From Allobosea sp. (GTDB lineage: Bacteria; Pseudomonadota; Alphaproteobacteria; Rhizobiales; Beijerinckiaceae), in the NCBI RefSeq assembly GCF_017308015.1, contig NZ_JAFKFW010000024.1, positions 1 to 64,000 on the forward strand: a DNA stretch of 64,000 bases, written 5' to 3'. The notes under the pieces were generated by a model, which worked only from the letters and a program-made list of their open reading frames with translations, searched no databases and had not been told where the DNA came from. Shown in pieces: positions 19,295 to 34,139 of the stretch. The translations under genes were made by a program, and so were the position numbers. Each line of letters opens with the position of its first letter. Position 1 is the stretch's first letter.

Positions 19295-19387
19295 GCCCTT
19301 CGATCTACGCAGACCGCCTTGAAAAAGCCGCCTGCAAAAGCCGCGAATTCGACCGTTTCGATGGCAGGGTCGGTTAACCCAGAACCC

Positions 19388-20926
19388 TCACGCCGCCTGG
19401 ACGAGGTCCTCGCCACGCGCCCGATAGGACAGGGCTTCGGCGAGATGGCGCCGGCCGACCTTCGCTTCGCCATCGAGATCGGCAAGGGTGCGGGCGACCT
19501 TCAACACGCGATGATAAGCGCGCGCCGTCAGCCGCAGCGCTTCGGTCGCATCGCGCAGCAGCGCGAGACCAGCGTTGTCCGGCCGCGCGACCTCCTCGAT
19601 CACGGTGACGGGGCAGGCGGCATTGGTCATGACATGTCCGAGGCCGCGATTCTCGAAACGCGCCGCCTGAATCCGGCGGGCCGAAGCGACGCGGACAGCG
19701 ACCGTCGCCGAGCTCTCGCCAATGGCGGGGCGGATGAGGTCCGCAGCCGTCACCGCCGGCACGTCGATCGCGATATCGATCCGGTCGAGCAGCGGGCCGG
19801 AGACGCGCGCCTGATATTGCGCCATGCAGCGGTCATTCGGCTGGCGGCGGCAGGCGTAGCCAGGTTCGGTCGCACGGCCGCAACGGCAGGGGTTCATCGC
19901 CGCGACGAGCTGGAAGCGTGCGGGATAGACGACGCGGTGATTGGCGCGGGAGATCAGGACGTCGCCGGTCTCCATCGGCTGTCGCAAGGCATCGAGCGCC
20001 TGCGGCTGGAATTCCGGCAGTTCGTCGAGGAAGAGCACGCCATGATGCGCGAGCGAGACCTCGCCCGGCCGCGCCTGCAGGCCACCGCCGACGAGCGCTG
20101 CCATCGAGGCCGAATGATGCGGCGCCCGGAACGGCCGCCGGTCGGTCAGGGCGCCCTCAGCGAGCTTGCCGGCGACGGACAAGACCATCGAGACTTCGAG
20201 GAGCTCGCGGGGCGAAAGCGGCGGCAGGATCGAAGGCAGGCGGCTCGCCAGCATCGACTTGCCTGCCCCGGGCGGGCCGTTCATCAGGAGATTGTGGCCA
20301 CCGGCCGCCGCGATCTCCAGAACGCGCCGCGCGCTTTCCTGACCCTTGACGTCGGCCAGGTCGGGCAATGGGCCAGCCTGGCGCGCTACGGCCGGCTCGG
20401 GCCGGGCCATCACCTGCGTGCCCTTGAAATGGTTGGCGAGCTGGATTAGCGAGCGCGGCGCCAGGATGTCGATATCCGCCGCGGCCCAGGCCGCTTCCGG
20501 CCCGGACGCCGCCGGGCAGATCAGCCCCTGCCCTTTCGCATAGGCCGCGATCGCCGCCGGCAGGACGCCCGCCACCGGTGCGATCGAGCCGTCGAGCGCC
20601 AATTCGCCGAGGACCGCATAGCCGGAAAGAGCATCGGCAGGGATCGCCCCGATCGCGGCCATCACCGCGAGCGCGATCGGCAGGTCGTAATGGCTGCCCT
20701 CCTTGGGCAGATCGGCCGGGGCGAGATTGACTGTGACGCGCTTGGCGGGCAGCGCGAGCCCCGAAGCGAGAAGCGCGGCGCGAACACGCTCGCGGCTTTC
20801 GGCCACGGCCTTGTCGGGGAGGCCGACCAGCACGAAGGCGACGCCGCCCGGCGCGACCTGGACCTGAACGTCGACGGCGCGCGCCTCGATGCCCTCGAAC
20901 GCCACCGTCGCGACCCGCGCCACCAT
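19388..20926 (-). CDS. comM: YifB/ComM family AAA+ ATPase (Mg-chelatase-like)
   Basis: The 512-residue length is that of ComM, the hexameric helicase that promotes branch migration during natural transformation in some bacteria. The N-terminal Lon-protease-like fold has SRERVRAALLASG and VTVNLAPADLPKEGSHYDLP. The AAA+ part has Walker A NGPPGAGKSMLASRLP, Walker B GVLFLDELPEF and the Mg-chelatase C-terminal domain with a CRCGRATEPGYAC cluster. The orthologue is widespread in bacteria with no known competence, so its role here may be general recombination. Confidence 0.94.
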   Translation of the reverse strand: MVARVATVAFEGIEARAVDVQVQVAPGGVAFVLVGLPDKAVAESRERVRAALLASGLALPAKRVTVNLAPADLPKEGSHYDLPIALAVMAAIGAIPADALSGYAVLGELALDGSIAPVAGVLPAAIAAYAKGQGLICPAASGPEAAWAAADIDILAPRSLIQLANHFKGTQVMARPEPAVARQAGPLPDLADVKGQESARRVLEIAAAGGHNLLMNGPPGAGKSMLASRLPSILPPLSPRELLEVSMVLSVAGKLAEGALTDRRPFRAPHHSASMAALVGGGLQARPGEVSLAHHGVLFLDELPEFQPQALDALRQPMETGDVLISRANHRVVYPARFQLVAAMNPCRCGRATEPGYACRRQPNDRCMAQYQARVSGPLLDRIDIAIDVPAVTAADLIRPAIGESSATVAVRVASARRIQAARFENRGLGHVMTNAACPVTVIEEVARPDNAGLALLRDATEALRLTARAYHRVLKVARTLADLDGEAKVGRRHLAEALSYRARGEDLVQAA

Positions 20927-21013
20927 CTCGGCCCCGCTCCCCTACCCCATGGGAAGGCTAGCGAAGCTTTGGTAGCAACGCAAGAACATATAGGGAACCC
21001 AGCAGGGCAAAAG

Positions 21014-21036
21014 AAGGGGAGGCTATGCCTCCCCTT
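21014..21036 (-). terminator. Intrinsic terminator of msrA
   Basis: On the minus strand AAGGGGAGGC-ATA-GCCTCCCCTT forms a perfect 10-bp stem followed by CTTTTG, 4 bases after the msrA stop codon. Confidence 0.8.
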
Positions 21037-21040
21037 TGCA

Positions 21041-21697
21041 TCAGGCCTCGACGCCGAGGCCGATCTGGCAGGCGACTCCGGTGCCGCCCAGGCCGCAATA
21101 GCCAGCCGGGTTCTTCGCCAGGTACTGCTGATGGTAATCCTCGGCGAAATAGAGCGTGGGCGCCTCGCGGATCTCGGTCGTGATCGGGCCGTAGCCGCCG
21201 GCGGCCAGCGCCTTGCCGTACTCGGCGCGCGAGCGCTCGGCGGCTTCCTGCTGCCCGGCGTCAAAGGTGTAGATCGCCGAGCGGTATTGCGTGCCGACAT
21301 CGCCGCCCTGCCTCATGCCCTGAGTCGGGTCGTGGTTCTCCCAGAAGATCTTGAGCAGGTCCTCATAGGTGATCCTGGCAGGGTCGAAGACCACGAGGAC
21401 GACTTCGGTATGCCCGGTCAGGCCGCTGCAAACCTCCTCATAGGTCGGGTTGGGCGTCGCGCCGCCGGCATAGCCGACGGCCGTCACCCAGATGCCCTCG
21501 CCGCTCTGCCAGAATTTGCGCTCCGCACCCCAGAAGCAGCCGAGGCCGAAGACGGCTTTGCGAAGCCCCTCCGGATAGGGGCCGGCCAGGGAGCGGCCGT
21601 TGACGAAATGTGTTTCGGCAGTGGGAATCGCCGCGGCACGGCCGGGAAGCGCCTCGGCGGCAGTCGGAATCTCGGTCTTCTTGCGCAGGGAGAACAT
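21041..21697 (-). CDS. msrA: Peptide methionine (S)-S-oxide reductase
   Basis: It reduces the S epimer of methionine sulfoxide in proteins and free methionine with thioredoxin. ATG 21697, preceded by GGAG, gives 218 residues, close to E. coli MsrA (212). The catalytic cysteine is C54 in GLGCFWGAE, with the family blocks [29 protein letters not shown] and FWENHDPTQ. Two C-terminal cysteines ([13 protein letters not shown]) fit the recycling disulfide relay. The much longer open frame that includes this gene is an artefact of missing stops. A strong terminator follows directly. Confidence 0.96.
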
Positions 21698-21780
21698 CGG
21701 TCGCTCCGTTTCGTTCGGGCTCAAAGCCAATGTAGGCGTCGGCGGGCCGTTCGGACAGTGGCTCGAACGCGGGCGTGCCA

Positions 21781-22101
21781 TCACCGACGCGTGACGATGC
21801 CGATGGCCTCGTCCGGGCGCCGCCCCAGCCAGAGCAACATGAAGCCGAGCACAAGCGCAGCCCCGGCCGCCGGGGCACGCAGCACGGTCAGCAGGACCGG
21901 ATCCCAGAGCCAGGGATGGATATTGCGTTCTATCGCCGGCTGGATGAGCTGATAGCGCCCCTGGACGACGGCGATCAGCACCTCGCCGACCGGCGTAAAC
22001 CGCAAGCCGGCATTCGCGATCGACCTGGCACCGTCGATCACCAGCGCGACGAAGCCGGCCGCAACGGACAGATAACCGACAAACCGCAGAAGAAACCGCA
22101 C
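21781..22101 (-). CDS. Small two-helix membrane protein of unknown function
   Basis: Reading from GTG 22101, 7 bases after GGGAG, gives 106 residues. An N-terminal hydrophobic segment ([20 protein letters not shown]) and a C-terminal one ([18 protein letters not shown]) flank a conserved-looking middle part ([20 protein letters not shown] ... [14 protein letters not shown]). I recall similar short proteins in many rhizobia, some labelled after cytochrome b6f subunits without evidence. No function is assigned. It lies 83 bases upstream of msrA, so co-transcription is possible. Confidence 0.7.
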
Positions 22102-22290
22102 CACCCTGCTCCCTGTCGCGCTCCATAGCGGCGGGCACGCCGCGCCCGGCCGACCAGGCGGCCAGGACCTCAAGATGTGACCCTGCCGGCTGCGGATCGC
22201 AACCGATCGCGCGCGATTTATCGAGATTGTGCAAAACCCTGCATCTCGGCCCTTGAAAGATGGCGAACCGGCAGTCATAAGCAGCGCGCC

Positions 22291-22380
22291 GGACAGGTGG
22301 CCGAGTGGTTGAAGGCGCACGCCTGGAAAGTGTGTATACGGGGAACCGTATCGCGGGTTCGAATCCCGCCCTGTCCGCCA
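22291..22380 (+). tRNA. tRNA-Ser (anticodon GGA)
   Basis: A 90-base type II tRNA. Acceptor arms GGACAGG and CCTGTCC pair perfectly, the anticodon loop CTGGAAA holds GGA at 22325-22327, a long variable arm (TACGGGGAACCGTA) follows, the T loop is GGTTCGAATCC, and CCA is encoded. It reads TCC and TCT codons. Its 3' end is a usual integration target for tyrosine integrases, and a decayed integrase fragment lies 274 bases downstream. Confidence 0.97.
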
Positions 22381-22653
22381 TTTTTGCGCTTCGCGCCGCC
22401 GCCGCACCGATCCTGCACGCGTATCTTGATCGACAAAGCAGGATATTCGACCGCGCCGCAGCGCACACGCCAATATTCGTGGTCGGTTCCCCAACATTGC
22501 GGATGACGAGGCCCTTCCGGCCCGCGTCGAGGGGCCAGGCGGCTCTCGTGGCAGGAGCTGCGGCGGTGCGGCAGCCTCACGAATCGTGATGCAGAGGCGA
22601 CCGCGCCATCCGAGAGCGAGAGTTTGACCTCAGTCGGGAGCCCTGACATCGCT
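22381..22653. other. Non-coding region after tRNA-Ser
   Basis: No gene-like sequence is supported in these 273 bases. Open frames on the minus strand run through the tRNA and are artefacts. With the next two features it forms a 598-base gene-free stretch that looks like eroded former coding DNA. Confidence 0.5.
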
Positions 22654-22752
22654 TCGCCGTGCAGGCGGATGCTGGAGGACATGACCATCCACCAGTTCGA
22701 CGCATCCATGCGGCGTGGGTATGAGCGTCAGGTCCGCGAGTTCACGCTGTTC
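22654..22752 (+). pseudogene. Decayed N-terminal fragment of a tyrosine recombinase
   Basis: The plus-strand translation reads [15 protein letters not shown] then [18 protein letters not shown]. This matches the pattern SPLRRRMIEDMTIRxF-xxxTQRxYIRxVxxFTxF at the start of a common group of site-specific integrases (SAM-like core-binding domain). The similarity stops after about 33 residues, and no catalytic domain follows. The comparison is from memory of the family, not from a search. It sits 274 bases after tRNA-Ser, which suggests an old integration. Confidence 0.45.
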
Positions 22753-22927
22753 CCCGCTTGCCCCACGATCGGGCGAAGCCCGAGGATCGGCGATGATCCG
22801 CCATCCCCATCTCCACATCATCGCACGCGGAGGCGGCCTCGGCCCCGACGGCTCACCCTGGATGACGAGACATCGCCTTACCGCTGAAGAGCGATCCTCG
22901 GGAGCACCGCTCAGGACGCTATTCAGG

Positions 22928-22960
22928 CGGAGAGGGCCGCTTCTGGCGCGGCCCTCTCCG
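22928..22960. terminator. Hairpin terminator downstream of the isochorismatase-fold gene
   Basis: A perfect 13-bp stem (CGGAGAGGGCCGC / GCGGCCCTCTCCG) with a 7-base loop lies 18 bases past the stop codon of the leftward catabolic operon. The tail is not U-rich in either direction. Confidence 0.65.
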
Positions 22961-22978
22961 TTCATGCTGTGATCTGGC

Positions 22979-23581
22979 TTACTGCTTCAGGCTGGCGATG
23001 ATCTCGGCGCAGTTCGAGATCGTCACCATCGAACCCAGCGAGGCGATCGTGGACTCATGCGCGCCGACGTCGAAGCCCGCGCAGCCGTCAGAGAGGACGA
23101 TGGTCTTGAAGCCGCGCATATGCGAGTCGGAGGCAGTGAAGGACACGCCGCCATTGGTGACGATGCCGCCGAAGATGCAGGTCTTGATGCCGGCGCGCTG
23201 GAGCACGAACTCGAGGCGGCTCATGTAGAAGGCCGAGTAGGTGACCTTGTCGACCGAGAGGTCGGCCGGCTGGAGCTCGTCGATCATCGCATGCCCGCGG
23301 CTGCCCGGCGCGAAGTCGCCCTGCGAGATGAACGGGCGCAGCTTGCGGATATGATCCAGCATCAGCGGCTGACCATTCTTGCCCGGCACGACCGTGAAAT
23401 GCGTCGAGACGATCCAGCCGCCAGCCGCGCGCATGGCGTCGCAGACCGGAACCAGCTTCGCCGGAAGGGCGGCGATTTCTGGAGACCCCAAGCCGTTGCG
23501 CGGATAGGCTCCATCCTTGTCGTAAAAGTCGTTCTGCATGTCCACAAGGACAAGCGCAGTGGTCTTGGGGTCGAATTCCAT
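22979..23581 (-). CDS. Isochorismatase-fold protein lacking the catalytic cysteine
   Basis: A 200-residue protein with the cysteine-hydrolase fold: D14 in ALVLVDMQNDFY and K112 in VDKVTYSAF occupy two places of the Asp-Lys-Cys triad. The third should be Cys in TNxCV, but the sequence reads IVTNGGVSFTA with Gly at 145 (codon GGC). C135, ten residues earlier, is not in the catalytic position. Family members hydrolyse amides such as maleamate, or isochorismate. This protein is therefore an unusual variant or has a non-hydrolytic role. It is the last gene of the operon with the lyase and hydratase, 44 bases downstream. Confidence 0.88.
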   Translation of the reverse strand: MEFDPKTTALVLVDMQNDFYDKDGAYPRNGLGSPEIAALPAKLVPVCDAMRAAGGWIVSTHFTVVPGKNGQPLMLDHIRKLRPFISQGDFAPGSRGHAMIDELQPADLSVDKVTYSAFYMSRLEFVLQRAGIKTCIFGGIVTNGGVSFTASDSHMRGFKTIVLSDGCAGFDVGAHESTIASLGSMVTISNCAEIIASLKQ

Positions 23582-23625
23582 GGTTAGACTCCTGATGGTA
23601 AAGTCGAAAACATGTCTGTCGCGGC

Positions 23626-24528
23626 TCAGCCGCGACCCGCCGGGTCGTATCCGGCTGCCGCATCGAGAAGCCTTGCGGTCCCGAGGCGCTCGTTGAGCTC
23701 GACGAAATCGAGCATCTGCTCGCGGAAGGGCCCGTTTGTCCCATGTGCGAGCAAGCTGCCGTAATAGCGCTCGGCCGTGTGGCAGAGCGCGCGGATAATT
23801 CCACCGGGAAAGATCACCAGCCTGAAGCCGATGCCCTCGAGGTCGGCCGCGGTCATCATCGGCGTCGAGCCGCCCTCGACCATGTTGGCGAGCAGCGGCA
23901 CCGATCCCTCGAAGGCACGCGCGATCTCGCGCATCTGCACGATCGACTGCGGAGCCTCGATGAAGAGGATATCACAGCCCGCCGCGACATAGCGGCGACC
24001 GCGATCGAGCGCGGCGGCAAAGCCCTCCACCGCGATGGCATCGGTGCGTGCGATGACGAGGGTCGAAGCGTTCAGGCGTGCATCGACGGCCGCCCGCACC
24101 TTGCCGACCATCTCATCCACGGCGACGAGGCTCTTGCCGCGGAGGTGGCCGCAGCGCTTCGGCATCTCCTGGTCTTCGAGCTGGATCGCGGCAGCACCGG
24201 CCTTCTCGAAGGCCCGCACCGTGCGTGCCGCATTGAGCGCGTTGCCGAAGCCCGTGTCAGCGTCAACGATGATCGGCAGATCGACCCGCTCGGCGATCTG
24301 CGAGAGCGTCGCCTCGACTTCGCTCATCGTGACGAGCCCGACATCCGGCCGCCCGAGCCGTCCGTAAGCGATGTTCGCTCCCGAAAGATAGAGGGCCTCG
24401 GCGCCGGCACGCGCCGCGACGAGCGCAGTCAACGCATCCGATATCCCGGGAGCCAGCAGGATCCTCCCTTCCTCCAGACGACGTCCGAGTTCGATCTGCC
24501 GACGCCCCGCGCCGCCTTCGTCAAGCAT
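23626..24528 (-). CDS. Isocitrate lyase/PEP mutase-family lyase (dimethylmalate-lyase-like)
   Basis: ATG 24528 overlaps the end of the small hydratase gene by 8 bases and gives 300 residues. The TIM-barrel family motifs are intact: metal-binding IVDADTGFGN (residues 87-96), IQLEDQEMPKRCGHLRGK with catalytic C126, and VIARTDAIAVEGF. The size and KRCGH motif fit methylisocitrate lyase, oxaloacetate decarboxylase and 2,3-dimethylmalate lyase. No citrate synthase-like gene (prpC) is nearby, which speaks against propionate metabolism. Next to an aconitase-type hydratase it probably splits the hydratase product into pyruvate or another 2-oxo acid and a second acid (inference). Confidence 0.87.
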   Translation of the reverse strand: MLDEGGAGRRQIELGRRLEEGRILLAPGISDALTALVAARAGAEALYLSGANIAYGRLGRPDVGLVTMSEVEATLSQIAERVDLPIIVDADTGFGNALNAARTVRAFEKAGAAAIQLEDQEMPKRCGHLRGKSLVAVDEMVGKVRAAVDARLNASTLVIARTDAIAVEGFAAALDRGRRYVAAGCDILFIEAPQSIVQMREIARAFEGSVPLLANMVEGGSTPMMTAADLEGIGFRLVIFPGGIIRALCHTAERYYGSLLAHGTNGPFREQMLDFVELNERLGTARLLDAAAGYDPAGRG

Positions 24529-25039
24529 TCTGGGACTCCTGGCGGGGCTCGCCGAGCCGCGCCTTGACATAGGGAACCAGCCCGCCTGCGCGGGCGATTT
24601 CGAGCAGGTTCGGCGGCACCGGCGCGCAGACACAGCCGCGGCTCCGCGACAGATTGGTCAGACACCCCGTTCGCGGATCCAGGCTGACGCGGTCGCCGGT
24701 CTCGAACAGCTCGACCGCTTCCGCCGATTGCAGCGCCATCAGCCCGTTGTTGAAGGCGTTGCGGTAGAAGATGCCGCCGAAGCTGCGCGCGACGACAGCG
24801 CGGATGCCGAGATGCAGCAGCGCCTGCGCCGCCTGCTCCCGCGATGAACCGATCCCGAAACCGCGGCCGGCGATCACGACATCCCCCGGTTTCACGCTCG
24901 CCGCGAACTCTTCGTCGAGAGCCTCGAGGCAATGTTTGGCGAGCTCCGCCATCGGCGCCTTCATGTAGAGGCCCGGGGCCAGCATGTCGGTATCGACGGA
25001 GTCGCCGAAGCACCTGGCCGTTCCCTCGATCGTATCCAT
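24521..25039 (-). CDS. Aconitase-family hydratase, small (swivel) subunit
   Basis: A 172-residue LeuD-type swivel-domain protein from ATG 25039. Characteristic pieces are CFGDSVDTDMLAPG, AGRGFGIGSSREQAAQAL and FGGIFYRNAFNNGL. It forms the holoenzyme with the large subunit that ends 2 bases upstream. The genuine isopropylmalate dehydratase genes are normally near other leucine genes, none of which occur here, so a catabolic hydratase (for example of dimethylmaleate, maleate or citraconate type) is more likely. The substrate cannot be read from sequence. Confidence 0.88.
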   Translation of the reverse strand: MDTIEGTARCFGDSVDTDMLAPGLYMKAPMAELAKHCLEALDEEFAASVKPGDVVIAGRGFGIGSSREQAAQALLHLGIRAVVARSFGGIFYRNAFNNGLMALQSAEAVELFETGDRVSLDPRTGCLTNLSRSRGCVCAPVPPNLLEIARAGGLVPYVKARLGEPRQESQNA

Positions 25040-25041
25040 CG

Positions 25042-26316
25042 TCAGCCCTTCAGGAATTCGCGCGGGTCGGCGATCGTCCCGACGATCGCGCTTGCGGCCA
25101 CGGTGTAGGGCGAGCCGAGATAGACGGCCGAGGTCTTGTCGCCCATCCGGCCGCGGAAATTCCGAGCCGTGCTCGACAGGCAGACCTCGCCCTCTGCCAG
25201 CACGCCCGCGCCATAGCCCGCGCACGCTCCGCAGCCGGAGGGAAGCAACGTGGCGCCGGCTGCCGTCAGGATCGCCAATGTGCCGTCGGCGGCGGCCATT
25301 TCGATGGTGCGCTGGCTGGCCGGCGCCACCAGGAGCCTCACGGACGAGGCGACCGAGCGGCCTTTCAGGACGCTGGCGGCCATCTGCAGGTCGACCAGCT
25401 TGGCGCCCGTGCAGGCGCCGATATAGGCGACGTCAAAGGCCACGCCGGCGAAGGTGTCGACAGCCGAGGTGTTCTCGGGGCTGTGCGGCGCGGCGACCTG
25501 AGGTCCTATTTCGCTCGGGCCGAGCCTGACGATCTCGGCAATCTCGGCATCGGCATCGGAGCGGAGGCGGGCCAGGTCGTCCGGACGCGGATGGCCGAAG
25601 CGATCGAGATAGCGCCAGGTCGTCTCGTCGGCCGGAACGATGCCGGACAAACCGCCGAGTTCCGCCGCCATGTTGCACAGCGTCATCCGCTCCTGCATGT
25701 CCATGGCTTCGATCGCCGAGCCGCGATACTCGACGACGCGATAGCCGGCGCCATCCATGCCCAGACGCCGGCAGAGAGTCAGCATGACGTCTTTGGCGCA
25801 GACCCCGAGCGGCAACGCTCCGTCGATCTCGACGACCATCGTTTCCGGCGTTCGCAACCAGGTGTCGCCGGTCGCCAGCGCGCAGGCCATGTCGGTGGCG
25901 CCGACGCCGAACATCAGGCAGCCGAAGGCGCCGCCGGTAGGCGAATGGCTATCCCCGCCGATGGCGAACATGCCGGGGCGCAGATGGCCGTGCTCGGGCA
26001 CCACGACATGGCAGATGCCGCGCATGTCGTAGAAGGCGGCGATGCCGTTGGCCTTGGCCCAGCGACGGCTGCCATGCAGGATCGCTGCGCTCTCAGCGTC
26101 GAAACCCGGCGCGAAATGGTCGTTGACCAGGACCACGCGGGCAGGATCCCAGACACCGGCTCCGAGCCTCTCGAGTATCGGCGCGACGCGGCGCGGCCCG
26201 CCCGAGTCATGAATCATCGCCAGATCGAGACGGCAGGTGACGACGTCACCGGCCCGGACGCCCTCTCTGCCGGAGGCGCGTGCGACGATCTTCTCGGCCA
26301 GGGTGAAACCGGGCAT
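25042..26316 (-). CDS. Aconitase-family hydratase, large (Fe-S) subunit
   Basis: A 424-residue LeuC-type protein with the three [4Fe-4S] ligands: C302 in IGACTGAKLVDL, C362 and C365 in SGCGACAG. Other conserved blocks are VVLVNDHFAPG, HVVVPEHGHLRPGM and GDSHSPTGGAFG. The sequence GACTGAKLVD replaces the GSCTNGRxxD typical of true isopropylmalate dehydratase, which points to another substrate. It is 3 bases from the regulator gene and 2 bases from the small subunit, so all five genes form one operon. Confidence 0.88.
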   Translation of the reverse strand: MPGFTLAEKIVARASGREGVRAGDVVTCRLDLAMIHDSGGPRRVAPILERLGAGVWDPARVVLVNDHFAPGFDAESAAILHGSRRWAKANGIAAFYDMRGICHVVVPEHGHLRPGMFAIGGDSHSPTGGAFGCLMFGVGATDMACALATGDTWLRTPETMVVEIDGALPLGVCAKDVMLTLCRRLGMDGAGYRVVEYRGSAIEAMDMQERMTLCNMAAELGGLSGIVPADETTWRYLDRFGHPRPDDLARLRSDADAEIAEIVRLGPSEIGPQVAAPHSPENTSAVDTFAGVAFDVAYIGACTGAKLVDLQMAASVLKGRSVASSVRLLVAPASQRTIEMAAADGTLAILTAAGATLLPSGCGACAGYGAGVLAEGEVCLSSTARNFRGRMGDKTSAVYLGSPYTVAASAIVGTIADPREFLKG

Positions 26317-26319
26317 CGC

Positions 26320-27132
26320 TCAGCTCCCCGTCATGTCGGACGGAGCATCGTCGACATGCCAGTGGCCGCCCGTGCGGGGCGAATGAACACGGGAAAGGCT
26401 GAAGTGATACTGGAACCGGTCGGGACGATAGAGAGCGACCAGATGCTCGACCGGACGCCCGGTCGAATCGTAGACGACCCTCACGATTCGCATCAGGGGA
26501 TTGCCCGGCTCGACCCCCAGCAGCGGCGCGACGGTAACGTCCGCCAGCGTCGCCGAAATGGTCTGCTCGGCACGGTCAATCTCGATGCCGAGCCCCTCGA
26601 GAAGCCCGATCAGCGGCCCGCTCGCCATCTCCTCCGCCGAGATGCGCTCGCCGAGATCGGCCGGCACATGCGTGGTCAGGTGCGAGAAAACCTCCCCCGA
26701 GATCTCCCGCAGGCGGACTGCCCTTTGCACAGGCGAGCCCGAAGGAATCCTGAGGTCGGCCGCGACGCGCGGAGGGGCCTGGACGAAGTCGCATCTCACC
26801 AGCCGGACCGAAGTCTCGGCTCCCATGCGCCGGATGCGCTCGACCAGTTGCTCGACTGACGAAACGATCGGCTCGGCACGGGCGACACCGACAGGATTCA
26901 CCCTGGTGCCCTTGCCGCGCGCACGGACCACCAGACCGGCCGCGGCGAGCTCGTTCAGCGCACGACTGGCGGTGATGCGCGACACGCCATAGCTCTCGGC
27001 GATCTCGCTCTCCGTAGCCACACGCCCGTCCTCGGGAACATCGCCCGCGAGGATCTTCTCCCGCATCTGCAGATAGATCCGGTGATAGAGCGGGACGCGC
27101 ATCCCGTCGCCGTCGTCGACCCCGTTTGCCAT
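26320..27132 (-). CDS. GntR/HutC-family regulator (UTRA ligand domain)
   Basis: A 270-residue regulator from ATG 27132 (upstream in-frame starts lack family sequence). The N-terminal winged helix has PLYHRIYLQMREKILAG, DGRVATESEIAESYGVSR and ARGKGTRVNPVG. The C-terminal UTRA domain (about 100-250) binds a small ligand in this subfamily. It is the first gene of the leftward hydratase-lyase operon and is divergent from the ABC importer genes, so it most likely represses both and responds to the imported compound. A palindrome in the shared promoter region is its probable site. Confidence 0.9.
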   Translation of the reverse strand: MANGVDDGDGMRVPLYHRIYLQMREKILAGDVPEDGRVATESEIAESYGVSRITASRALNELAAAGLVVRARGKGTRVNPVGVARAEPIVSSVEQLVERIRRMGAETSVRLVRCDFVQAPPRVAADLRIPSGSPVQRAVRLREISGEVFSHLTTHVPADLGERISAEEMASGPLIGLLEGLGIEIDRAEQTISATLADVTVAPLLGVEPGNPLMRIVRVVYDSTGRPVEHLVALYRPDRFQYHFSLSRVHSPRTGGHWHVDDAPSDMTGS

Positions 27133-27179
27133 GGAGTTATCGCCTGCCAGGGGCGGCATCGCCGCTCGCCACAAATGTT

Positions 27180-27211
27180 CTATTGACATAGCAATAGGGT
27201 AATTCAATACT
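27180..27211 (+). promoter_or_regulatory. Candidate ABC-operon promoter with overlapping GntR operator
   Basis: On the plus strand TTGACA (27183-27188) is followed after 17 bases by AATACT (27206-27211), a plausible sigma70 promoter 24 bases before the ABC ATPase start. The perfect 6+6 palindrome CTATTG-ACATAG-CAATAG (27180-27197) covers the -35 box. It lies in the 102-base region between the divergent regulator and importer genes, where a regulator bound to it would block the importer promoter. Binding is inferred. Confidence 0.55.
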
Positions 27212-27234
27212 CCCGGCAAGCTAAAAAGGCGGGA

Positions 27235-28032
27235 ATGGACTGGCCGGTGACGATGCTTCTCTTCGAGCAGGTCGATATGGATTTCAGCGCGAACGGCAGG
27301 GCGGTACCTGCCGTTCGCGGCGTCGATCTCGCCGTGGAGGCGGGCGAGATCGTCACGCTCGTAGGGCCGTCCGGCTGCGGCAAGTCGACCTTGCTCAACA
27401 TCACGGCGGGCCTCTTCGCACCAAGCCGCGGGCGGGCGCTCTACAACGGCGCGCCGATCAGGGGCATCAATACGCGCGTCGGCTACATGACCCAGAACGA
27501 TCACCTGCTGCCCTGGCGGGACGTGCTGGGCAACATCTCGGTGCCGATGGAGATCGCCGGCCTGTCACAGGCGCGCAAGCGCGAGCGTGCGGAAGAACTG
27601 CTGTCCCTCGTCGGGCTGTCGGGCTTCGAAAAGGCCTATCCCGCGCAACTCTCGGGCGGCATGCGCAAGCGCGCGGCGCTGGCGCGGCTGCTGGCGCAGG
27701 ATCCAGAAACCCTGCTGATGGACGAACCCTTCGGCGCGCTCGACGCGCAATTGCGCCTGCTGCTGCAGGCCGAGTTGCGCCGCGTCGCCAAGCGCTTCGG
27801 AAAGACGGTGCTGTTCGTCACGCATGATCTCGACGAGGCGGTCGCCATCGCCGATCGCTGCGTGATCTTCGCCGGAAGGCCGGGTCGCATCGCCGAGGTG
27901 CTGCCTATTACGCTGCCGGTCGACCGGGACCTTTTCAAGCTCCGCTTCGATCCGGCCTACAACGAACTCTGCGCCAGGCTCTGGAGCATCATCGCACCGG
28001 AGCTCGCGTCCGGACTGGCGGCATCGCAATGA
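27235..28032 (+). CDS. ABC transporter ATP-binding protein (nitrate/sulfonate/taurine type)
   Basis: The 265-residue ATPase has Walker A GPSGCGKSTLL, Q loop YMTQNDHLLPW, signature QLSGGMRKRAALARLL, Walker B LLMDEPFGALD and switch histidine in FVTHDLDEA. The QNDHLLPWRDV and DEPFGALDAQ blocks belong to the SsuB/TauB/NrtD group. A second start is ATG 27253; ATG 27235 is preceded by AAGG. It heads the rightward importer operon and overlaps the permease gene by 4 bases. Confidence 0.93.
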   Translation: MDWPVTMLLFEQVDMDFSANGRAVPAVRGVDLAVEAGEIVTLVGPSGCGKSTLLNITAGLFAPSRGRALYNGAPIRGINTRVGYMTQNDHLLPWRDVLGNISVPMEIAGLSQARKRERAEELLSLVGLSGFEKAYPAQLSGGMRKRAALARLLAQDPETLLMDEPFGALDAQLRLLLQAELRRVAKRFGKTVLFVTHDLDEAVAIADRCVIFAGRPGRIAEVLPITLPVDRDLFKLRFDPAYNELCARLWSIIAPELASGLAASQ

Positions 28033-28793
28033 TCATCGCTCTTCGCCTCGGCCTTGTCGCCGCGCTTCTCCTCGCCTGGGAACTCGCCTCCGGGAGGCTG
28101 GTGCCGGAGTTCTTCGTCTCACGGCCGAGCGCCATCGCGGTCGCCCTGGCCAACTACATCCAGGACGGGATGATTTTCTTCCATATGGGCGTGACGGCGA
28201 CGGAGGCCATCGCCGGATTCCTGCTGGGCGGAGGCGCGGGCTTCGCGGCCGGCCTGCTCCTCGGCCGGCAGCCTGTCCTCGCCGATGTGCTGGACCCCTT
28301 CCTGACAGCGTTCTACAGCCTGCCCAAGGTCGCGCTGGCGCCGCTCTACGTGCTCTGGTTCGGTATCGGCATCGAAATGAAGATCGTCCTCGCGGCGACG
28401 ATCGTTTTCTTCCTCGTCTTCCTGAACACATATTCCGGCGTGCGCCAAGTCAGCCGCGAGCAGCTCACCATCCTGCGGCTGATGGGCGCCTCGGAATGGC
28501 AGACGATGCGGATGGTGGTGGTCCCGTCCGCCGTGAGCTGGGTCTTCACCGGCCTCAGGCTGTCTGTCCCTTACGCCCTGATCGGGGCCATCGTGGGCGA
28601 AATGATCGCATCCAACCGCGGGCTGGGCTTCGTCCTGTCCGATGCCGCCGGCCAGTTCAGTACCGCCAACGTCTTCGCCGCGCTGCTGGTGATCACCGTC
28701 CTCGCCATCCTGCTCAACATGGCCGTCCGACTGGCCGAAAAGATGCTCATGCCCTGGCAGCATGCAGGGAACCGCCGCGAATTCAGCGTCTGA
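28029..28793 (+). CDS. ABC transporter permease (SsuC/TauC type)
   Basis: A 254-residue protein with about six membrane helices and the cytoplasmic coupling loop RLMGASEWQTMRMVVVPSA. That loop holds the EAA-type motif of binding-protein-dependent permeases. The blocks FYSLPKVALAPLYVLWFG and VGEMIASNRGLGF are typical for the nitrate/sulfonate/taurine group. It starts inside the stop codon of the ATPase gene, so translation is coupled. One permease gene suggests a homodimer. Confidence 0.93.
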   Translation: MIIALRLGLVAALLLAWELASGRLVPEFFVSRPSAIAVALANYIQDGMIFFHMGVTATEAIAGFLLGGGAGFAAGLLLGRQPVLADVLDPFLTAFYSLPKVALAPLYVLWFGIGIEMKIVLAATIVFFLVFLNTYSGVRQVSREQLTILRLMGASEWQTMRMVVVPSAVSWVFTGLRLSVPYALIGAIVGEMIASNRGLGFVLSDAAGQFSTANVFAALLVITVLAILLNMAVRLAEKMLMPWQHAGNRREFSV

Positions 28794-28821
28794 GACATCA
28801 CAAACAAGGAGGGGACTTCCA

Positions 28822-29871
28822 ATGGGTTCACAGATCACGAAGCGCAGCTTCCTGACAACGATGGCGGGCGCCTCGGCGCTCTCCTTGCCCTCGTTGTTCG
28901 GCGCGACGGGCGCGGCAGCGGCAGATGTCGTCCGCTTCGCGCAGCCGAGTGACGGCTTCCTCTACCTGCCGATCTACATCGCCCGGGCCAAAGGGTTCTT
29001 CGAGCAGGAAGGCATCAACGCCGACGTCGTGGTTTTCAAGGGCGGCGCAGCCGCGCTTTCGGCCGTGATCTCGAACGGCTCCGATGTCTATATCGGGGTA
29101 CCGGCCATCGGCATGAACGCCATTGCCCAAGGGCAGCCCGTCAAGATGTTCGCATCGGTGATGACGGAGTATGCGAGCAATATCGTCATCCGCGGCGACG
29201 TCGCCAAGAAGCTCGGCCTCACCGATAAAAGCCCGGTCGAGCAGCGGCTCGCTGCGCTCAAGGGGCTGACGATCGGTATCACCGGCCCTGGCGCCGCGCC
29301 GGACCTTCTGCTGCGCCACATCGCCAAGACGATGAAGTGGAATCCGGATCGCGACTTCGAGATGACGCCGCTCGGCAGCGGCCCGAACATGCTGGCCGCC
29401 TTCTCGCAGAAGCGTATCGACGGCTATTGCCTGTCCTCGCCGACGAGCACGACCGGCGTCGTCAAGTACGACGGCTACCAGTTGCTCAACCTGTCGGCCG
29501 GCGAGTACGCGCCGCTCAAGGGCTTCCTGTACATCAGCCTGATCGCGAAGGATCCCTGGCTGGCCGCCAACCCGGATCGATCGGCGCGGATCGTCAGGGC
29601 GCTGTGGCGCGGGCAGAAGCTGCTGCGTGAAAATCCGGCTGCGGCGAAGGAAGCAGTCCGAGGCTTCTTCAAGGGAACCGAGCCGGCCATCTTCGACGCG
29701 GCCTGGGACGAGAATTTGCCGGCCTTCCCGGGTGCACCGCAGATCGCCGCGGACGCCATCAAGGCGAACCTCGATTTCATCGCCGAGATGGAAGGCAAAA
29801 AGCTCGCGCTCGATCCGATGCAGACCTTCACCAATGCCTATGCCGACGCTGCGGCGAAGGGACTGTCCTGA
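28822..29871 (+). CDS. ABC transporter substrate-binding protein (NMT1/SsuA-like)
   Basis: ATG 28822 follows a very strong AAGGAGGGG site and gives 349 residues. The leader has twin-arginine-free KRSFLTTMAGASALSL followed by a cleavage region GAAAA. The mature part begins VVRFAQPSDGFLYLPIYIA, the usual start of this family, with GIEV-like variant EGINADVVVFKGG. Ligands of relatives include sulfonates, aromatic acids, pyrimidine precursors and riboflavin precursors. The ligand here is unknown, but the operon arrangement says that it, or a derivative, is the substrate of the divergent hydratase-lyase enzymes. Confidence 0.92.
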   Translation: MGSQITKRSFLTTMAGASALSLPSLFGATGAAAADVVRFAQPSDGFLYLPIYIARAKGFFEQEGINADVVVFKGGAAALSAVISNGSDVYIGVPAIGMNAIAQGQPVKMFASVMTEYASNIVIRGDVAKKLGLTDKSPVEQRLAALKGLTIGITGPGAAPDLLLRHIAKTMKWNPDRDFEMTPLGSGPNMLAAFSQKRIDGYCLSSPTSTTGVVKYDGYQLLNLSAGEYAPLKGFLYISLIAKDPWLAANPDRSARIVRALWRGQKLLRENPAAAKEAVRGFFKGTEPAIFDAAWDENLPAFPGAPQIAADAIKANLDFIAEMEGKKLALDPMQTFTNAYADAAAKGLS

Positions 29872-29959
29872 GCGAGATCGACGTTCTCGCCTGGAGTTAG
29901 GGTAGAACCGCCCCTGGTTTGCCGGCACCGCACTGCGACGCCCGGCAGCAATAGCCTGT

Positions 29960-29999
29960 GCGAGAACCGGATCCGGCCTGCGGCGGGTCCGGTTCTCGC
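29960..29999 (+). terminator. Hairpin terminator after the importer operon
   Basis: A long stem (GCGAGAACCGGA pairing with TCCGGTTCTCGC, plus inner pairs) closes an inner loop, 88 bases after the substrate-binding gene. No T tract follows. Confidence 0.65.
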
Positions 30000-30008
30000 C
30001 TCTGCAGC

Positions 30009-30189
30009 TCATGACCGGGTGCAGGCGAGGCCTATTCGCGAGGCCTTGCCCAGTCCCACTGCCTTCTGCCTGCCGCCCCACCGGGACAGCACGAGCCGGA
30101 GCCGCGCACCGCAGGCGTCCACATGAAGATCGGCTCCCCTGCCATCGTCATGATACCTCCCTCGCAACCGTATCGACCTTCCGAGCAGA
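30009..30189 (-). pseudogene. Frameshifted N-terminal relic of a DUF4102-type tyrosine integrase
   Basis: On the minus strand one frame reads SARKVDTVA up to about 30160, and the next frame continues RGRYHDDGRGADLHVDACGA then RWGGRQKAVGLGKA and ends in a stop at 30009. Joined, these match the start of phage-type integrases with an Arm-DNA-binding DUF4102 domain (LTARKVDTV..PGRYHDGRGLYLHVDxxGA...GLGKA). A frameshift near 30160 and loss of everything after about 60 residues make it non-functional. The match is by family knowledge, but the order and spacing of the motifs are distinctive. Confidence 0.6.
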
Positions 30190-30506
30190 ACGGTCGTCGC
30201 TTGCGCGCCATCCCTGCGCATGCCGTCCATGACCCTGGTTTTCATCCCATCCAGCGCAAGTCGAGGCTGGCCAAAGCGACCGACCGTGATCGATCAGTGC
30301 AGCCGGCAGTTGCGTTCCAGATTGAAATCGGCCTCGTTCGACCCGGGGTGACGCGCGGTTCGGCGGGCGCCTGCGATGCAAGGCACCTGTTCGCCCGCGA
30401 GCGCTTCTCAAGCCGGGAGCTTGCTCCTAGGGTCACCAAGCGGATTGGCACGACGATCGGCGGCCGCCGCAGGATATCGACGCGAACCCGGCTCAGGAAG
30501 GCTTCC
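30190..30506. other. Gene-free spacer before the formamidase-like gene
   Basis: The frame of the formamidase-like gene is open upstream to 30123, but the added residues are not family sequence and nothing else in the 317 bases looks coding. It probably contains the promoter of the next gene, which I could not pin down. Confidence 0.45.
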
Positions 30507-31439
30507 ATGGCGCGCCATCACTTCGTCCCGACCCGTTATTCGAACGTGCTCGCCACCTTGCCGCCAGTGCTGGAAATCGCCAGCGGCGACAGCGTCGTCA
30601 CCACCACGCTCGACGCTGCCGGCTTCGGCGGCGACGGCGAGCAGCACGCCCCGCGCGGCAACCCGATGACCGGCCCGTTCTTCGTCACCGGTGCCGAACC
30701 CGGCGACGCCCTGCTCGTCACCATCGAGCGGATGACGCCGAACCGGAAGACCGGCTGGACCTATTCGCCGCTGGCTCCCGGCGTGCTCGATCCTGCGATG
30801 CTGCACGAGCTGCCGAAGCGCGAGCGCCATGAATGGGCGATCGACGCGCAGGCCGGCACAGTGAAGCTGCTGGAGCCTTCAGCCGGGATCAGGGACTGGA
30901 GTTTCCCGCTCGAGCCAATGCTCGGCTGCTTCGGCGTCGCGCCGGAACGCGCCCAGGCGATCTCGACCGCGACCAGCGGCGCCAATGGTGGCAACATGGA
31001 TTACCGGCTGTTCGGGCCGGGCGCGACCATCGCCTTCCCGGTCTTCGTCGACGGCGCGCTGTTCTTCCTCGGCGACGGCCATGCCTGCCAGGGCGATGGC
31101 GAGATCGCCGGCACCGGCGTCGAGACCTCGTTCGAGGTCGAATTCTCGGTGAAACTCGTCAAGAAGCAGAACCTGCGCTGGCCGCGCTGCGAGACCGAGA
31201 CCGATCTGCTGGTCATCGCCAGCGGACGCCCGCTCGATCAGCCCCTGCAATTCGCCACCACCGAATTGCTGCGCTGGGTCGGCGATGCCCTCGGGGTCGA
31301 CCCGGTCGAGGCGAGCCACCTGCTCGGGCAGGCCGTGCGCTACGACATCGCCAATGTCTTCAACCCCGCCTATTGCGTCGCCGCCCGGCTCGAGAAGACG
31401 GAGCTGACGCGCGCCATGTCCTTCCGCTCGCGCGGCTAA
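30507..31439 (+). CDS. Acetamidase/formamidase family protein
   Basis: A 310-residue protein from ATG 30507 (AGGAAG upstream). It shows the family layout: HFVPTRYSNVLATLPPVL, APRGNPMTGPFFVTGAEPGD, MLGCFGVAP, TSGANGGNMDYRLFGPG and FFLGDGHACQGDGEI. Known members hydrolyse formamide or acetamide to ammonia and the acid, with a zinc site whose ligands I did not assign here. An M20 hydrolase gene follows after 34 bases, so the pair may release ammonia or deacylate an amide. It lies just outside the integrase relic. Confidence 0.88.
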   Translation: MARHHFVPTRYSNVLATLPPVLEIASGDSVVTTTLDAAGFGGDGEQHAPRGNPMTGPFFVTGAEPGDALLVTIERMTPNRKTGWTYSPLAPGVLDPAMLHELPKRERHEWAIDAQAGTVKLLEPSAGIRDWSFPLEPMLGCFGVAPERAQAISTATSGANGGNMDYRLFGPGATIAFPVFVDGALFFLGDGHACQGDGEIAGTGVETSFEVEFSVKLVKKQNLRWPRCETETDLLVIASGRPLDQPLQFATTELLRWVGDALGVDPVEASHLLGQAVRYDIANVFNPAYCVAARLEKTELTRAMSFRSRG

Positions 31440-31473
31440 CCCCCCTTCGAAACGCCGACCAAGAAGACCGATC

Positions 31474-32745
31474 ATGTCCGAGAATACCGCCGCCCTGAAG
31501 GCCGAACTGCTTCAGGCGATCGACACGCGCCGCGACGAGATCATCGCGCTGCTGCAACGCTTCCTGCGCATCAAGAGCGTCAACCCGCCGGGTGACACGC
31601 GCGAGGCCGCGGCCTTCGTGCGCGAACTGCTCGACGCAGCTGGCGTGCCGCATCGCACCGAGGCCTTCGTGCCGGAGATGCCGAACATCATCAGCCGCTG
31701 GCAGGCTGGAAAGCCCGGCCGCCATCTCATGCTCAACGGCCATATGGACATCTTCCCGGTCACCAACGAGAAGCTCTGGGATGCCGAGATCGTCGACGGC
31801 AAGATCATGGGCCGCGGCGCTTCCGACATGAAGACCGGAACGCTCGCCTCGATCCTCGCCTTCTGCCAGCTCTATCCCCACCGCGAGAAGCTCAACGGCG
31901 CGCTGTCGCTGACCGTGGTCTCGGACGAGCAGTCGGGCGGTCGCTACGGCACCAAATATCTGTTCGACGAGTTCGGCGACGAGATGGAGGCCGATTGCTG
32001 CCTCAACGGCGAGCCCAGCGGCCTCGCCAATCTGCGCTTCACCGAGAAGGGTACGCTGCGCTTCTCGCTCTCGGCGAAAAGTATCGGCGGCCATGGCGGC
32101 TATGCCCATCGCGCACGCAACCCGATCGCGGATGTGAGCCGGCTCGTGACCGCGATCTATGACCGCTACCATCTCAAGCTCGCGGAGTTGCCGCCGGAAA
32201 TCGATACCGTCCTGACCTCGCCCGAGACGATCGCGGCGGCCGACCTCAATCTCGGCAAGGGCGCGGGTGACATCGCAAGGCGCATCACCGTCAATGTCGG
32301 CATCCTGCAGGGCGGACAAAAGGCGACGCAGATCCCGACGCATTGCATCGCCCATCTCGACATGCGCATCCCGATCGGCTCCGACCGCGACGCGATCCGC
32401 GCCGATCTCGAAGCCCTCGCGCGCGAAGCCGATTGCGAGATGGTCGTCAACGAGGACCACAGCTATCCCGCGAGCCTGACCGATCCGTTCAGCGAGATGG
32501 CCAATATCCTGCGCGGCAATATCCGCGACCTGCTCGGGCATGACGCACCGCCGGTGTCGAGCCTGGGCGGCACCGATACGCGCTATTGGCGCTGGCGCGG
32601 CGTGCCCGCCCTGATCTGCGGGCCATCGCCGATCAGCATGGGCACCGACGAGGAGCACGTCACCATCGACGAGGCCATCGCGGTGATGAAGCTGCACGTC
32701 GCCTGCGCAGTCGACTATCTCGGCTCGACGGAGGCGTCCAACTAA
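31474..32745 (+). CDS. M20-family metallohydrolase (ArgE/DapE-like)
   Basis: A 423-residue di-zinc peptidase/deacylase. Metal ligands are in LMLNGHMDIFP (His, Asp), GRGASDMKTG (Asp) and the C-terminal DEEHVTIDEA (His). The catalytic pair, normally Glu-Glu in DEExG, reads SDEQSGG, so the second Glu (usually a metal ligand) is Gln. The lid domain contains SIGGHGGYAHRARNP. Relatives include acetylornithine deacetylase, succinyl-diaminopimelate desuccinylase and N-carbamoyl or N-formyl amino acid hydrolases. It is probably co-transcribed with the formamidase-like gene; the joint substrate is unknown. Confidence 0.88.
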   Translation: MSENTAALKAELLQAIDTRRDEIIALLQRFLRIKSVNPPGDTREAAAFVRELLDAAGVPHRTEAFVPEMPNIISRWQAGKPGRHLMLNGHMDIFPVTNEKLWDAEIVDGKIMGRGASDMKTGTLASILAFCQLYPHREKLNGALSLTVVSDEQSGGRYGTKYLFDEFGDEMEADCCLNGEPSGLANLRFTEKGTLRFSLSAKSIGGHGGYAHRARNPIADVSRLVTAIYDRYHLKLAELPPEIDTVLTSPETIAAADLNLGKGAGDIARRITVNVGILQGGQKATQIPTHCIAHLDMRIPIGSDRDAIRADLEALAREADCEMVVNEDHSYPASLTDPFSEMANILRGNIRDLLGHDAPPVSSLGGTDTRYWRWRGVPALICGPSPISMGTDEEHVTIDEAIAVMKLHVACAVDYLGSTEASN

Positions 32746-32751
32746 CCTGCC

Positions 32752-32863
32752 GTCATCCCGGACAAGCCGCGTAGCGGCGCCGATCCGGGATCCATGCCTG
32801 CCCCCCTATCGGCAGCGCTCAGGAATGGATCCCGGATCTCCGCTTCGCTCCGCCCGGGATGAC
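32752..32863. repeat. REP-like palindromic repeat, copy A
   Basis: A 112-bp element that begins GTCATCCCGGACAAGC and ends CGCCCGGGATGAC, with inner complementary pieces GATCCGGGATCCATGCC and GGAATGGATCCCGGATC. It lies between two convergent genes and could fold into a long hairpin. Copies B and C lie at 34044-34139 and 41326-41424. Confidence 0.8.
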
Positions 32864-32898
32864 GGCGCAGGTTGATCGATCAGCCATTCCGGCGGCGT

Positions 32899-33933: not shown

Positions 33934-34043
33934 GGAAGACCCGGTTCTGACAAGGGCCGGCAGAGTTGCGGATCGGCAGCAGGCACGCAAGTCCGCCGCC
34001 ATCCACCTCTGCGATGACCGGAAGCGATTTGACGGAAGCGCGG

Positions 34044-34139
34044 GTCATCCCGGCCGGAGCGAAGCGAAGAGCCGGGATCCATTCCTGAAGCTTTGCCGGA
34101 AGCGCTCTGGCATGGATCCCGGATCAAGTCCGGGATGAC
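34044..34139. repeat. REP-like palindromic repeat, copy B
   Basis: A 96-bp copy that starts GTCATCCCGG and ends AAGTCCGGGATGAC, with inner GCCGGGATCCATTCC and GGCATGGATCCCGGATC. It sits between the aldo/keto reductase gene and the upstream substrate-binding gene, so it could trim or end transcription between them. Confidence 0.8.

Follow-up and report, generated by a model that had tools for sequence, protein, structure and literature searches.

A conserved hydratase-lyase operon with a divergent ABC importer in Allobosea sp. and its possible role in the catabolism of an acid derived from a cyclic imide or amide

Genes at the locus and limits of the unit

The window analyzed in this work is a stretch of 64,000 nucleotides from Allobosea sp. 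(positions 1 to 64,000 of contig NZ_JAFKFW010000024.1, assembly GCF_017308015.1; Alphaproteobacteria, Rhizobiales, Beijerinckiaceae). It carries a real, conserved catabolic operon assembled from known families, in which the genes coding for a GntR-family regulator (GNT), the large and small subunits of an aconitase-family hydratase (LRG and SML), a lyase of the isocitrate lyase (ICL)/phosphoenolpyruvate (PEP) mutase family (LYA) and an isochorismatase-fold protein (ISO) run leftward in this order from 27159 to 22979, with an ATP-binding cassette (ABC) importer encoded divergently from 27235 to 29871. Five operon genes and a divergent importer had already been proposed in a sequence-only reading of this DNA, and all of them were found where that reading had placed them. 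The gene set suggests an undescribed route for a ring compound, possibly a fragment of chlorophyll or haem, and no description of it was found in a full-text search of the open-licence literature. The features are the following, with gene starts refined from the start codon and the upstream sequence:

22291..22380, + strand: tRNA-Ser (anticodon GGA), left border of the unit (ARAGORN)
22381..30377, no strand: the unit, formed by operon and importer (blastn against the sister species G829)
22979..23581, - strand: ISO, isochorismatase-fold protein (Pfam PF00857 Isochorismatase, 112 bits)
23626..24528, - strand: LYA, ICL/PEP-mutase-family lyase, PrpB-like (family profiles; CCAGGAG upstream of the start)
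24521..25039, - strand: SML, small (swivel) hydratase subunit, LeuD/DmdB subfamily (TIGR02087, YMKA loop, GSSREQ motif)
25042..26316, - strand: LRG, large [4Fe-4S] hydratase subunit, LeuC/HacA/DmdA subfamily (NF001614; tree)
26320..27159, - strand: GNT, GntR-family regulator with a UTRA domain, HutC type (UTRA, 117 bits)
27180..27197, divergent intergenic region: inverted repeat CTATTG-ACATAG-CAATAG, candidate operator (repeat scan)
27235..28032, + strand: ATPase of the ABC importer, nitrate/taurine type (family profiles)
28029..28793, + strand: permease of the ABC importer (family profiles)
28822..29871, + strand: NMT1/SsuA-type substrate-binding protein (family profiles; AAGGAGGGG upstream of the start)

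The genes of LYA and SML overlap by 8 bases and a gap of 2 bases separates LRG from SML. The profile scores of LRG, SML, LYA, ISO and GNT were far above chance level.

The left flank of the tRNA-Ser gene was compared with 20 other genomes of the genus, and window positions 19001-36000 were compared by blastn with seven stretches from five of the same-genus genomes. The flank is kept in the genus, and the match ends at 22380-22390 in 19 of the 20 genomes; in the twentieth (G836) no more than the initial 407 bases of the query are matched, at a contig end. The genus thus varies at the 3' end of tRNA-Ser(GGA). For G829, the nearest sister, matching DNA breaks off at 22380 and is found again from 30378 (30378-32729 and 32906-33907), running through the genes of an FmdA-like amidase, an M20 deacylase and an aldo-keto reductase, and the distance from tRNA-Ser to FmdA is about 34.5 kb. 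LRG, SML, LYA, ISO, GNT, the binding protein and the permease were not found in 40 kb of G829, the remainder of this genome not having been searched. The interval 22381-30377 contains the operon and the importer without any further recognised gene, so that the importer is tied to the operon better than by divergence alone. Short stretches of 22649-22863 match several places in same-genus genomes and perhaps represent a family of repeats at the unit's edge.

The unit was probably acquired by the window genome rather than lost in G829, given its patchy distribution: LRG-family matches (E<=1e-70) occur in 8 of 149 genomes of the taxonomic family, identities above 42% are restricted to the window genome and G308 (56%), and the sole LRG match in the six other same-genus genomes of this sample shows 40% identity.

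The FmdA-like amidase (30501-31439) and the M20 deacylase (31474-32745) were considered as the missing amide hydrolases and rejected as parts of the unit, because G829 carries both (97% and 95% protein identity, respectively) beside the same aldo-keto reductase and without hydratase or importer in the 40 kb read. Relatives of FmdA (E<=1e-30) are present in 57 of 297 genomes of the order, and no hydratase, NMT1-type binding protein, its permease or M20 was found within about 9 kb in the 8 loci fetched from the 14 other FmdA loci (at least 50% identity). Both genes probably constitute a separate amide pathway of the core genome. LIV-type importer genes lie close to this region (window 30123-32745) in G829.

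Conserved neighbourhood and ring-opening partners

Two sets of loci were used to analyze the neighbourhood, with genes called by homology and simple scoring instead of a gene finder, and with identity and distance thresholds of our own choice. Set A comprises 67 LRG-anchored loci, of which 51 are named records (L061-L111; 133 relatives were reduced to 80, and the nearest 51 of these were used) and 16 come from the order search (L039-L054). The duplicates L035-L038, six stretches (L055-L060), G173 and 29 rows with identities of at most 46% (L112-L140) were left outside this set, and one of them (L059 of G195) shows the same gene order. The second set was anchored on ISO, which gave matches at E<=1e-30 in 26 of 385 genomes of the class (about 7%, its own included). 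Every match was at or below 5.1e-58, so ISO forms a distinct orthologous group, and 26 loci from the 25 other genomes make up the ISO-anchored set.

The hydratase-lyase core is widely kept: SML (at least 45% identity) is present in 60 of the 67 set-A loci, and 42 of the 54 loci that offer more than 1.7 kb of room have a LYA (at least 50%) whose start lies no more than 1.5 kb past LRG. The gene order described in the sequence-only reading is therefore conserved in its core, but the exact order of five genes plus importer was absent from every other locus read. The nearest arrangement, L236, is GNT-LYA-HyuB-HyuA-ISO followed by the genes of a substrate-binding protein, an ATPase and a permease; this importer is of the NMT1 type and its ATPase is 55% identical to that of the window. 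Likewise, the importer highlighted in that reading belongs to the same unit as the operon, but its taurine type is rare in relatives (0/67 set-A loci, 1/26 ISO-anchored loci), other loci having importers of the LIV type (13/67) or of the TRAP, DPP and, by eye in L229 and L238, polar-amino-acid types.

What could not be seen from the window is that relatives carry ring-opening-type amidohydrolases, HyuB and HyuA, between the lyase and ISO, which shifts the likely source of the substrate to a cyclic imide or amide. Where more than 8 kb of room was available (41 set-A loci), 26 loci showed HyuB within 6 kb and 25 showed ISO within 9 kb. The HyuA and HyuB proteins of L048 resemble caprolactamase CapAB and N-methylhydantoinase HyuAB, with best matches to CapA (522 bits) and CapB (321 bits), but they remain below the caprolactamase cut-off (1000) and have other partner genes.

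A second, unrelated ring-opening system replaces HyuAB in some relatives. Among the 15 set-A loci with room but without HyuB, four (L072, L090, L093 and L104) have tandem PuuE-type genes, accompanied in L072, L093 and L104 by an isochorismatase with the cysteine motif TSGC and in L090, L093 and L104 by nitrilase-type amidases. The PuuE pair lies about 7 kb past LYA, at the end of the stretch, in L090, and in L104 the PuuE and amidase genes are located between SML and LYA, which are about 7 kb apart. A PuuE pair and a TSGC isochorismatase are also present in L041, next to a HyuB frame of 115 residues, and L167, from the window's own family, has the order LRG-SML-LYA-PuuE-PuuE with a 63% relative of the Cys isochorismatase on the opposite strand. 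The remaining 11 loci, with neither HyuB nor a PuuE pair, include L061 and L062 with a PrpF-family gene, L064 and L069 with a molybdenum (Mo) hydroxylase gene after SML, and L040, L066, L087, L094, L096, L097 and L108 with neither of them. Breakdown of cyclic imides by an imidase plus an amidase is described in passages of PMC9304392, where the PuuE-family protein HxnM of Aspergillus nidulans is a cyclic imidase according to gene deletion and metabolites, HxnN hydrolyses the amide, and an imidase of Pseudomonas putida YZ-26 is cited. The loci with PuuE-type genes beside the core (L041, L072, L093, L104 and L167; about 7 kb away in L090) resemble such systems, but here a hydratase and a lyase follow, most loci have HyuAB with an ISO devoid of the cysteine, and the window unit has neither opener. 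Because two unrelated ring-opening systems adjoin one hydratase-lyase core, the acid is probably derived from a cyclic imide or amide, and this two-opener pattern is the best evidence for that origin.

In the ISO-anchored set, HyuA lies within 400 bases and HyuB within 3.5 kb in 23 of the 26 loci each, LYA within 6 kb in 19, and an LRG of the window's clade within 9 kb in 13, so that LYA is somewhat more tightly bound to HyuB-HyuA-ISO than LRG. L233, L237, L245 and L253 have instead a distant LRG/SML pair (35-37% identity); the pair of L233, the only one tested, exceeds the bacterial LeuC and LeuD cut-offs. These counts bear on the explanation that two modules are only loosely joined, HyuAB/ISO or PuuE/amidase salvaging imide nitrogen (from glutarimide, for example) and LRG/SML/LYA acting on an unrelated acid, with their co-location due to a shared regulator or a hot spot. 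One module stands alone in L242 and in L087, L096, L097 and L108, the L233 group has a dehydrogenase and a coenzyme A (CoA) transferase without LYA, and the window unit has no ring opener, all of which would suit this explanation; nevertheless, LYA accompanies HyuB-HyuA-ISO in many families and two kinds of openers pair with the same core, and we consider it rather unlikely.

A flavoprotein gene often follows ISO (14/67 set-A loci; within 6.5 kb in 13/26 ISO-anchored loci), its product scoring 202 bits as flavocytochrome c (cut-off 285) and 134 bits as tricarballylate dehydrogenase TcuA (cut-off 369). GNT matches of at least 36% identity were found in 23/67 and 11/26 loci, respectively. In the window, the repeat at 27180-27197 also overlaps a -35-like TTGACA and is a candidate operator. 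The repeat scan of the 23 GNT loci gave, among the matches listed, TGACAT palindromes upstream of GNT in L067, L099 and L052, and a palindrome with CTATTGACA in L110.

Hydratase, lyase and ISO families and the likely substrate

LRG scored 515 bits with the LeuC/HacA subfamily model NF001614 (cut-off 385) and also passed TIGR01343 and TIGR02086, and SML scored 165 bits with the LeuD/DmdB subfamily model TIGR02087 (cut-off 109). Neither subunit reached an equivalog cut-off (for LRG: LEU2, 372 versus 611 bits; leuC, 229 versus 560; HacA_Meth, 393 versus 550). In a quick tree of 108 rows, in which LeuC (4kp1) and HacA (4kp2) of Methanocaldococcus jannaschii were the only characterised references, LRG belongs to a clade of 65 proteobacterial rows (support of 90 in the SH-like approximate likelihood ratio test, SH-aLRT) that is separate from both of them; very long branches make the placement of the bacterial-type LeuC of the own genome and of its C43 paralogue unsure. 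The reading of LRG/SML as a LeuCD duplicate was rejected on the basis of the equivalog cut-offs and the separate clade. The pair shares with LeuCD/HacAB the fold and the subunit plan, but differs in its clade and in being joined to a lyase.

The arginine in the small-subunit loop of homoaconitase recognises the additional carboxylate of its substrate. In alignments, the loop is YMKA in SML, YLRT in M. jannaschii homoaconitase and YLVY in its isopropylmalate isomerase, so that SML has a basic residue at the position of the homoaconitase Arg. Among 59 SML proteins of the clade, this position is occupied by K (43), R (6), A (6), H (2), G (1) or S (1), that is, by Lys or Arg in 49 of them. The recognition loop of the small subunit governs substrate preference, as stated in parts of PMC7308503.

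LYA belongs to the ICL/PEP mutase superfamily (PF13714, 142 bits; PF00463, 58 bits; PKRCGH motif kept). Its best-scoring family is prpB (TIGR02317), with 287.2 bits and thus below the cut-off of 354.4, while a canonical PrpB is encoded elsewhere in the genome (C53:16374, 420.7 bits). LYA and its orthologues are separated from Escherichia coli PrpB and from a carboxyphosphonoenolpyruvate mutase in a tree with long branches, three identical pairs and one very long row (own C24). LYA as a canonical PrpB was consequently rejected. The presence of a dedicated hydratase beside a dedicated carbon-carbon lyase, as the sequence-only reading had stated, is borne out by the clade of LRG and by the separation of LYA from PrpB.

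Partner genes recall the 2-methylcitrate cycle (PrpF, 2-methylisocitrate dehydratase and PrpB) in the type of chemistry. L061 has, beside LRG/SML, a PrpF-family protein (303 bits, cut-off 441) and an above-cut-off PrpB (395.5 bits), both scored on the same contig as L035, and L062 was assigned by homology. L068 also has a PrpF-family gene, in a stretch that ends before any lyase, and L238 has an MmgE/PrpD-family gene in place of LRG/SML. Three partner families are therefore common to that cycle: LYA (best score with prpB), PrpF and MmgE/PrpD; the difference lies in LYA itself, with its own clade beside a separate canonical PrpB in the genome. The PrpB-, PrpF- and PrpD-family partners, together with the basic recognition residue, make us lean to a 2-methylaconitate-like tricarboxylate.

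Dimethylmaleate, the substrate favoured by the sequence-only reading, is possible but not favoured here, as nothing singles it out and both the basic SML residue and the PrpB/PrpD-type partners lean towards a tricarboxylate. The tail of the nicotinate pathway of Eubacterium barkeri consists of dimethylmaleate hydratase DmdAB and 2,3-dimethylmalate lyase. If the operon encoded such a dimethylmaleate or citraconate route, the hydratase would be DmdAB and the lyase Dml, giving pyruvate and propionate (or acetate). The family pair is the same, a two-subunit aconitase-family hydratase beside an ICL/PEP-mutase-family lyase, with SML within the LeuD/DmdB model. A C-terminal fragment of LYA has the stretch NMVE-G-TP...GFR-IIFP in common with 3fa3, a 2,3-dimethylmalate lyase; even for this fragment PrpB entries give slightly higher scores, and the whole protein scores 205 bits with PrpB versus 168 bits with 3fa3. 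Methylitaconate isomerase belongs to the PrpF family, so the PrpF-family gene of L061, L062 and L068 could be this isomerase, and dialkylmaleates could arise from dialkylmaleimides as well. The relatives, by contrast, couple the pair to ring-opening-type amidohydrolases and mostly carry the basic residue at the third-carboxylate position (DmdAB being compared by description and not by sequence), the L061 lyase scores as a canonical PrpB, and the loci with the PrpD-family replacement (L238) or with glutaryl-CoA dehydrogenase do not require propionate. We regard this route as unlikely.

In ISO, Asp14 and Lys112 are invariant in an alignment of 15 rows, and the position of the catalytic cysteine is Gly145, a replacement which we take to resemble that of the true isochorismatases EntB/PhzD. 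NGG or NGA occupies this position in the 29 aligned set-A orthologues (window included; three Cys-bearing paralogues were kept out of the alignment) and in all the 26 ISO-anchored loci, so ISO lacks the Asp-Lys-Cys triad of isochorismatase-fold amidases such as RutB, biuret hydrolase and maleamate amidase. Its AlphaFold model (predicted local distance difference test, pLDDT, of 84) is nearest to the folds of a putative isochorismatase, biuret and triuret hydrolases and RutB. ISO may perform an acid-catalysed step, such as hydrolysis of a half-amide assisted by the carboxylate of the substrate itself, or may bind its ligand instead of cleaving it.

Genes for XdhA-type Mo-hydroxylases, which could be expected if the ring compound derives from an N-heterocycle, are present in the fetched stretch of 8 of the 67 set-A loci (L061, L062, L064, L068, L069, L072, L075 and L076), directly after SML in L064 and L069. 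Together with the basic SML residue, they would fit an isonicotinate-like pyridine route in which Mo-hydroxylases give 2,6-dihydroxypyridine, a cyclic imide tautomer, HyuAB/ISO convert it to cis-aconitate, and a private aconitase and isocitrate lyase yield succinate and glyoxylate. Such an aconitase would be redundant with the other aconitase-family proteins of the genome, no Mo-hydroxylase gene was seen in the stretches of the other 59 set-A loci, and glutaryl-CoA dehydrogenase and PrpF would be left unexplained, which makes this route very unlikely.

Proposed catabolic route

The explanation that we prefer, and to which we give about an even chance, is that the unit is catabolic for an imported acid, half-amide or imide, the acid being methylaconitate-like and derived from a cyclic imide or amide, hydrated by LRG/SML and split by LYA. 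We infer its reactions and its substrate from protein families and gene neighbourhoods. The importer would take up the acid, half-amide or imide, and GNT would sense the imported compound or one of its products. In most relatives HyuAB, together with ISO, would first release the acid from its cyclic imide or amide, a step taken in a few of them by PuuE-type imidases and a Cys-type amidase; since the window unit has no opener, this would be encoded elsewhere or the compound would be imported already ring-opened. LRG/SML would then hydrate the double bond of a maleate-like acid, most likely one with a methyl group and a third carboxylate (2-methylaconitate-like), and LYA would split the resulting 2-hydroxy acid as methylisocitrate lyase does, giving a 2-oxo acid, probably pyruvate, together with a saturated dicarboxylate that may be glutarate. 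In joining ring-opening-type amidohydrolases with a hydratase and a lyase of its own, the gene set marks a catabolic route whose products can be tested for, namely a 2-oxo acid, a dicarboxylate and ammonia.

Glutarate as the dicarboxylate is hinted at by glutaryl-CoA dehydrogenase genes near some copies of the cluster. In L233, ISO is followed by the genes of a glutaryl-CoA dehydrogenase (622 bits to 1sir) and of a CoA-transferase whose nearest family is succinate-glutarate CoA-transferase, with copies of both (at least 97% identity) in L237 and L253 of the same genus, and a similar CoA-transferase is located after ISO in L245. Relatives of the dehydrogenase are divergently arranged beside LRG in L090 (70%) and L167 (52%, cut by the contig end), and a further one, 70% identical, is encoded at C18 of the window genome.

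Were glutarate and pyruvate the lyase products, LYA would act on 2-methylhomoisocitrate and the hydratase on 2-methyl-cis-homoaconitate, which is ring-opened hematinic acid. The operon could then encode the last steps of a bacterial route that degrades the propionate-bearing pyrrole rings of chlorophyll and haem, via hematinic acid, to pyruvate and glutarate, a proposal that we put forward as speculative and, at present, improbable. Hematinic acid (3-(2-carboxyethyl)-4-methylmaleimide) would be converted to 2-methyl-cis-homoaconitate by HyuAB/ISO or by PuuE and amidase, LRG/SML would form 2-methylhomoisocitrate, LYA would act as a homologated methylisocitrate lyase, and glutarate would be consumed through CoA-transferase and glutaryl-CoA dehydrogenase. 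According to sections of PMC7318184, hematinic acid is a chlorophyll oxidation product reported from leaves and lake sediments, ring D is hydrogenated in chlorophylls except c, and chlorophyll synthesis and degradation amount to 10^12 kg yearly. The hydrogenated ring D would give a role to the TcuA-like flavoprotein, which would feed in the saturated form. Among the matches listed in the open-licence full-text search, no title dealt with bacterial hematinic acid catabolism; PMC10343206 was listed there as a further paper on haem/chlorophyll fragments. If true, the hematinic acid proposal would open the microbial fate of tetrapyrrole fragments to genetic study. The vitamin B2 pathway (PMC12746152), considered for its pyruvate end product, was dropped, since isopropylmalate, hydantoinase, isochorismatase and maleimide are not mentioned in that paper.

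Several observations weigh against the preferred explanation of a methylaconitate-like acid released from a cyclic imide or amide. Neither an imidase nor a HyuAB ring opener was found in the window, the PuuE-type proteins are nearest to allantoinase PuuE with only 118-140 bits versus a cut-off of 425, and an amidase role of ISO is doubtful because the cysteine nucleophile is absent. No close LYA was detected in 12 of the 54 set-A loci with room, L040, L061, L062 and L081 having a lyase of 40-43% identity there, and 9 of the 26 ISO-anchored loci, some of them cut by contig ends, have no LRG relative within 9 kb. The basic position of the recognition loop is Ala, Gly or Ser in 8 of the 59 SML proteins and His in 2, and the PrpF-family gene, if it were methylitaconate isomerase, could suit dimethylmaleate. 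Concerning glutarate, the dehydrogenase occurs in three lineages only, that of L233 reaches 215 of the 470 bits of the NCBIfam glutaryl-CoA model, the CoA-transferases score 537 (L233) and 513 bits (L245) versus a family cut-off of 750, and the L233 group has no LYA, so that glutarimide would explain its dehydrogenase as well.

Other gene combinations were observed in the loci read. A protein family present in 8 set-A loci includes Tautomerase-SnoaL proteins (tested in L052, 2894-3553, and L053, 16156-16731), which recur near the operon, and another one adjoins GNT in L229 (17892-18506). In the own genome, L055 (G000:C43:36000-51000, positions 5666-9945) encodes a 651-residue aconitase-family protein, a class III CoA-transferase and an enzyme similar to 3-hydroxy-3-methylglutaryl-CoA (HMG-CoA) lyase, another hydratase-lyase combination with CoA activation. 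In the Chloroflexi locus L140 (15064-19090), distant LRG/SML and a LYA-like lyase are grouped with two components assigned by eye, an isopropylmalate-synthase-like protein and a transporter of the tripartite tricarboxylate type. A different downstream branch is found in L252 (12445-16131), where HyuB-HyuA-ISO stand beside an HMG-CoA-lyase-like enzyme, CoA-transferases, a relative of the Cys isochorismatase and an arylmalonate decarboxylase/EutA-like protein.

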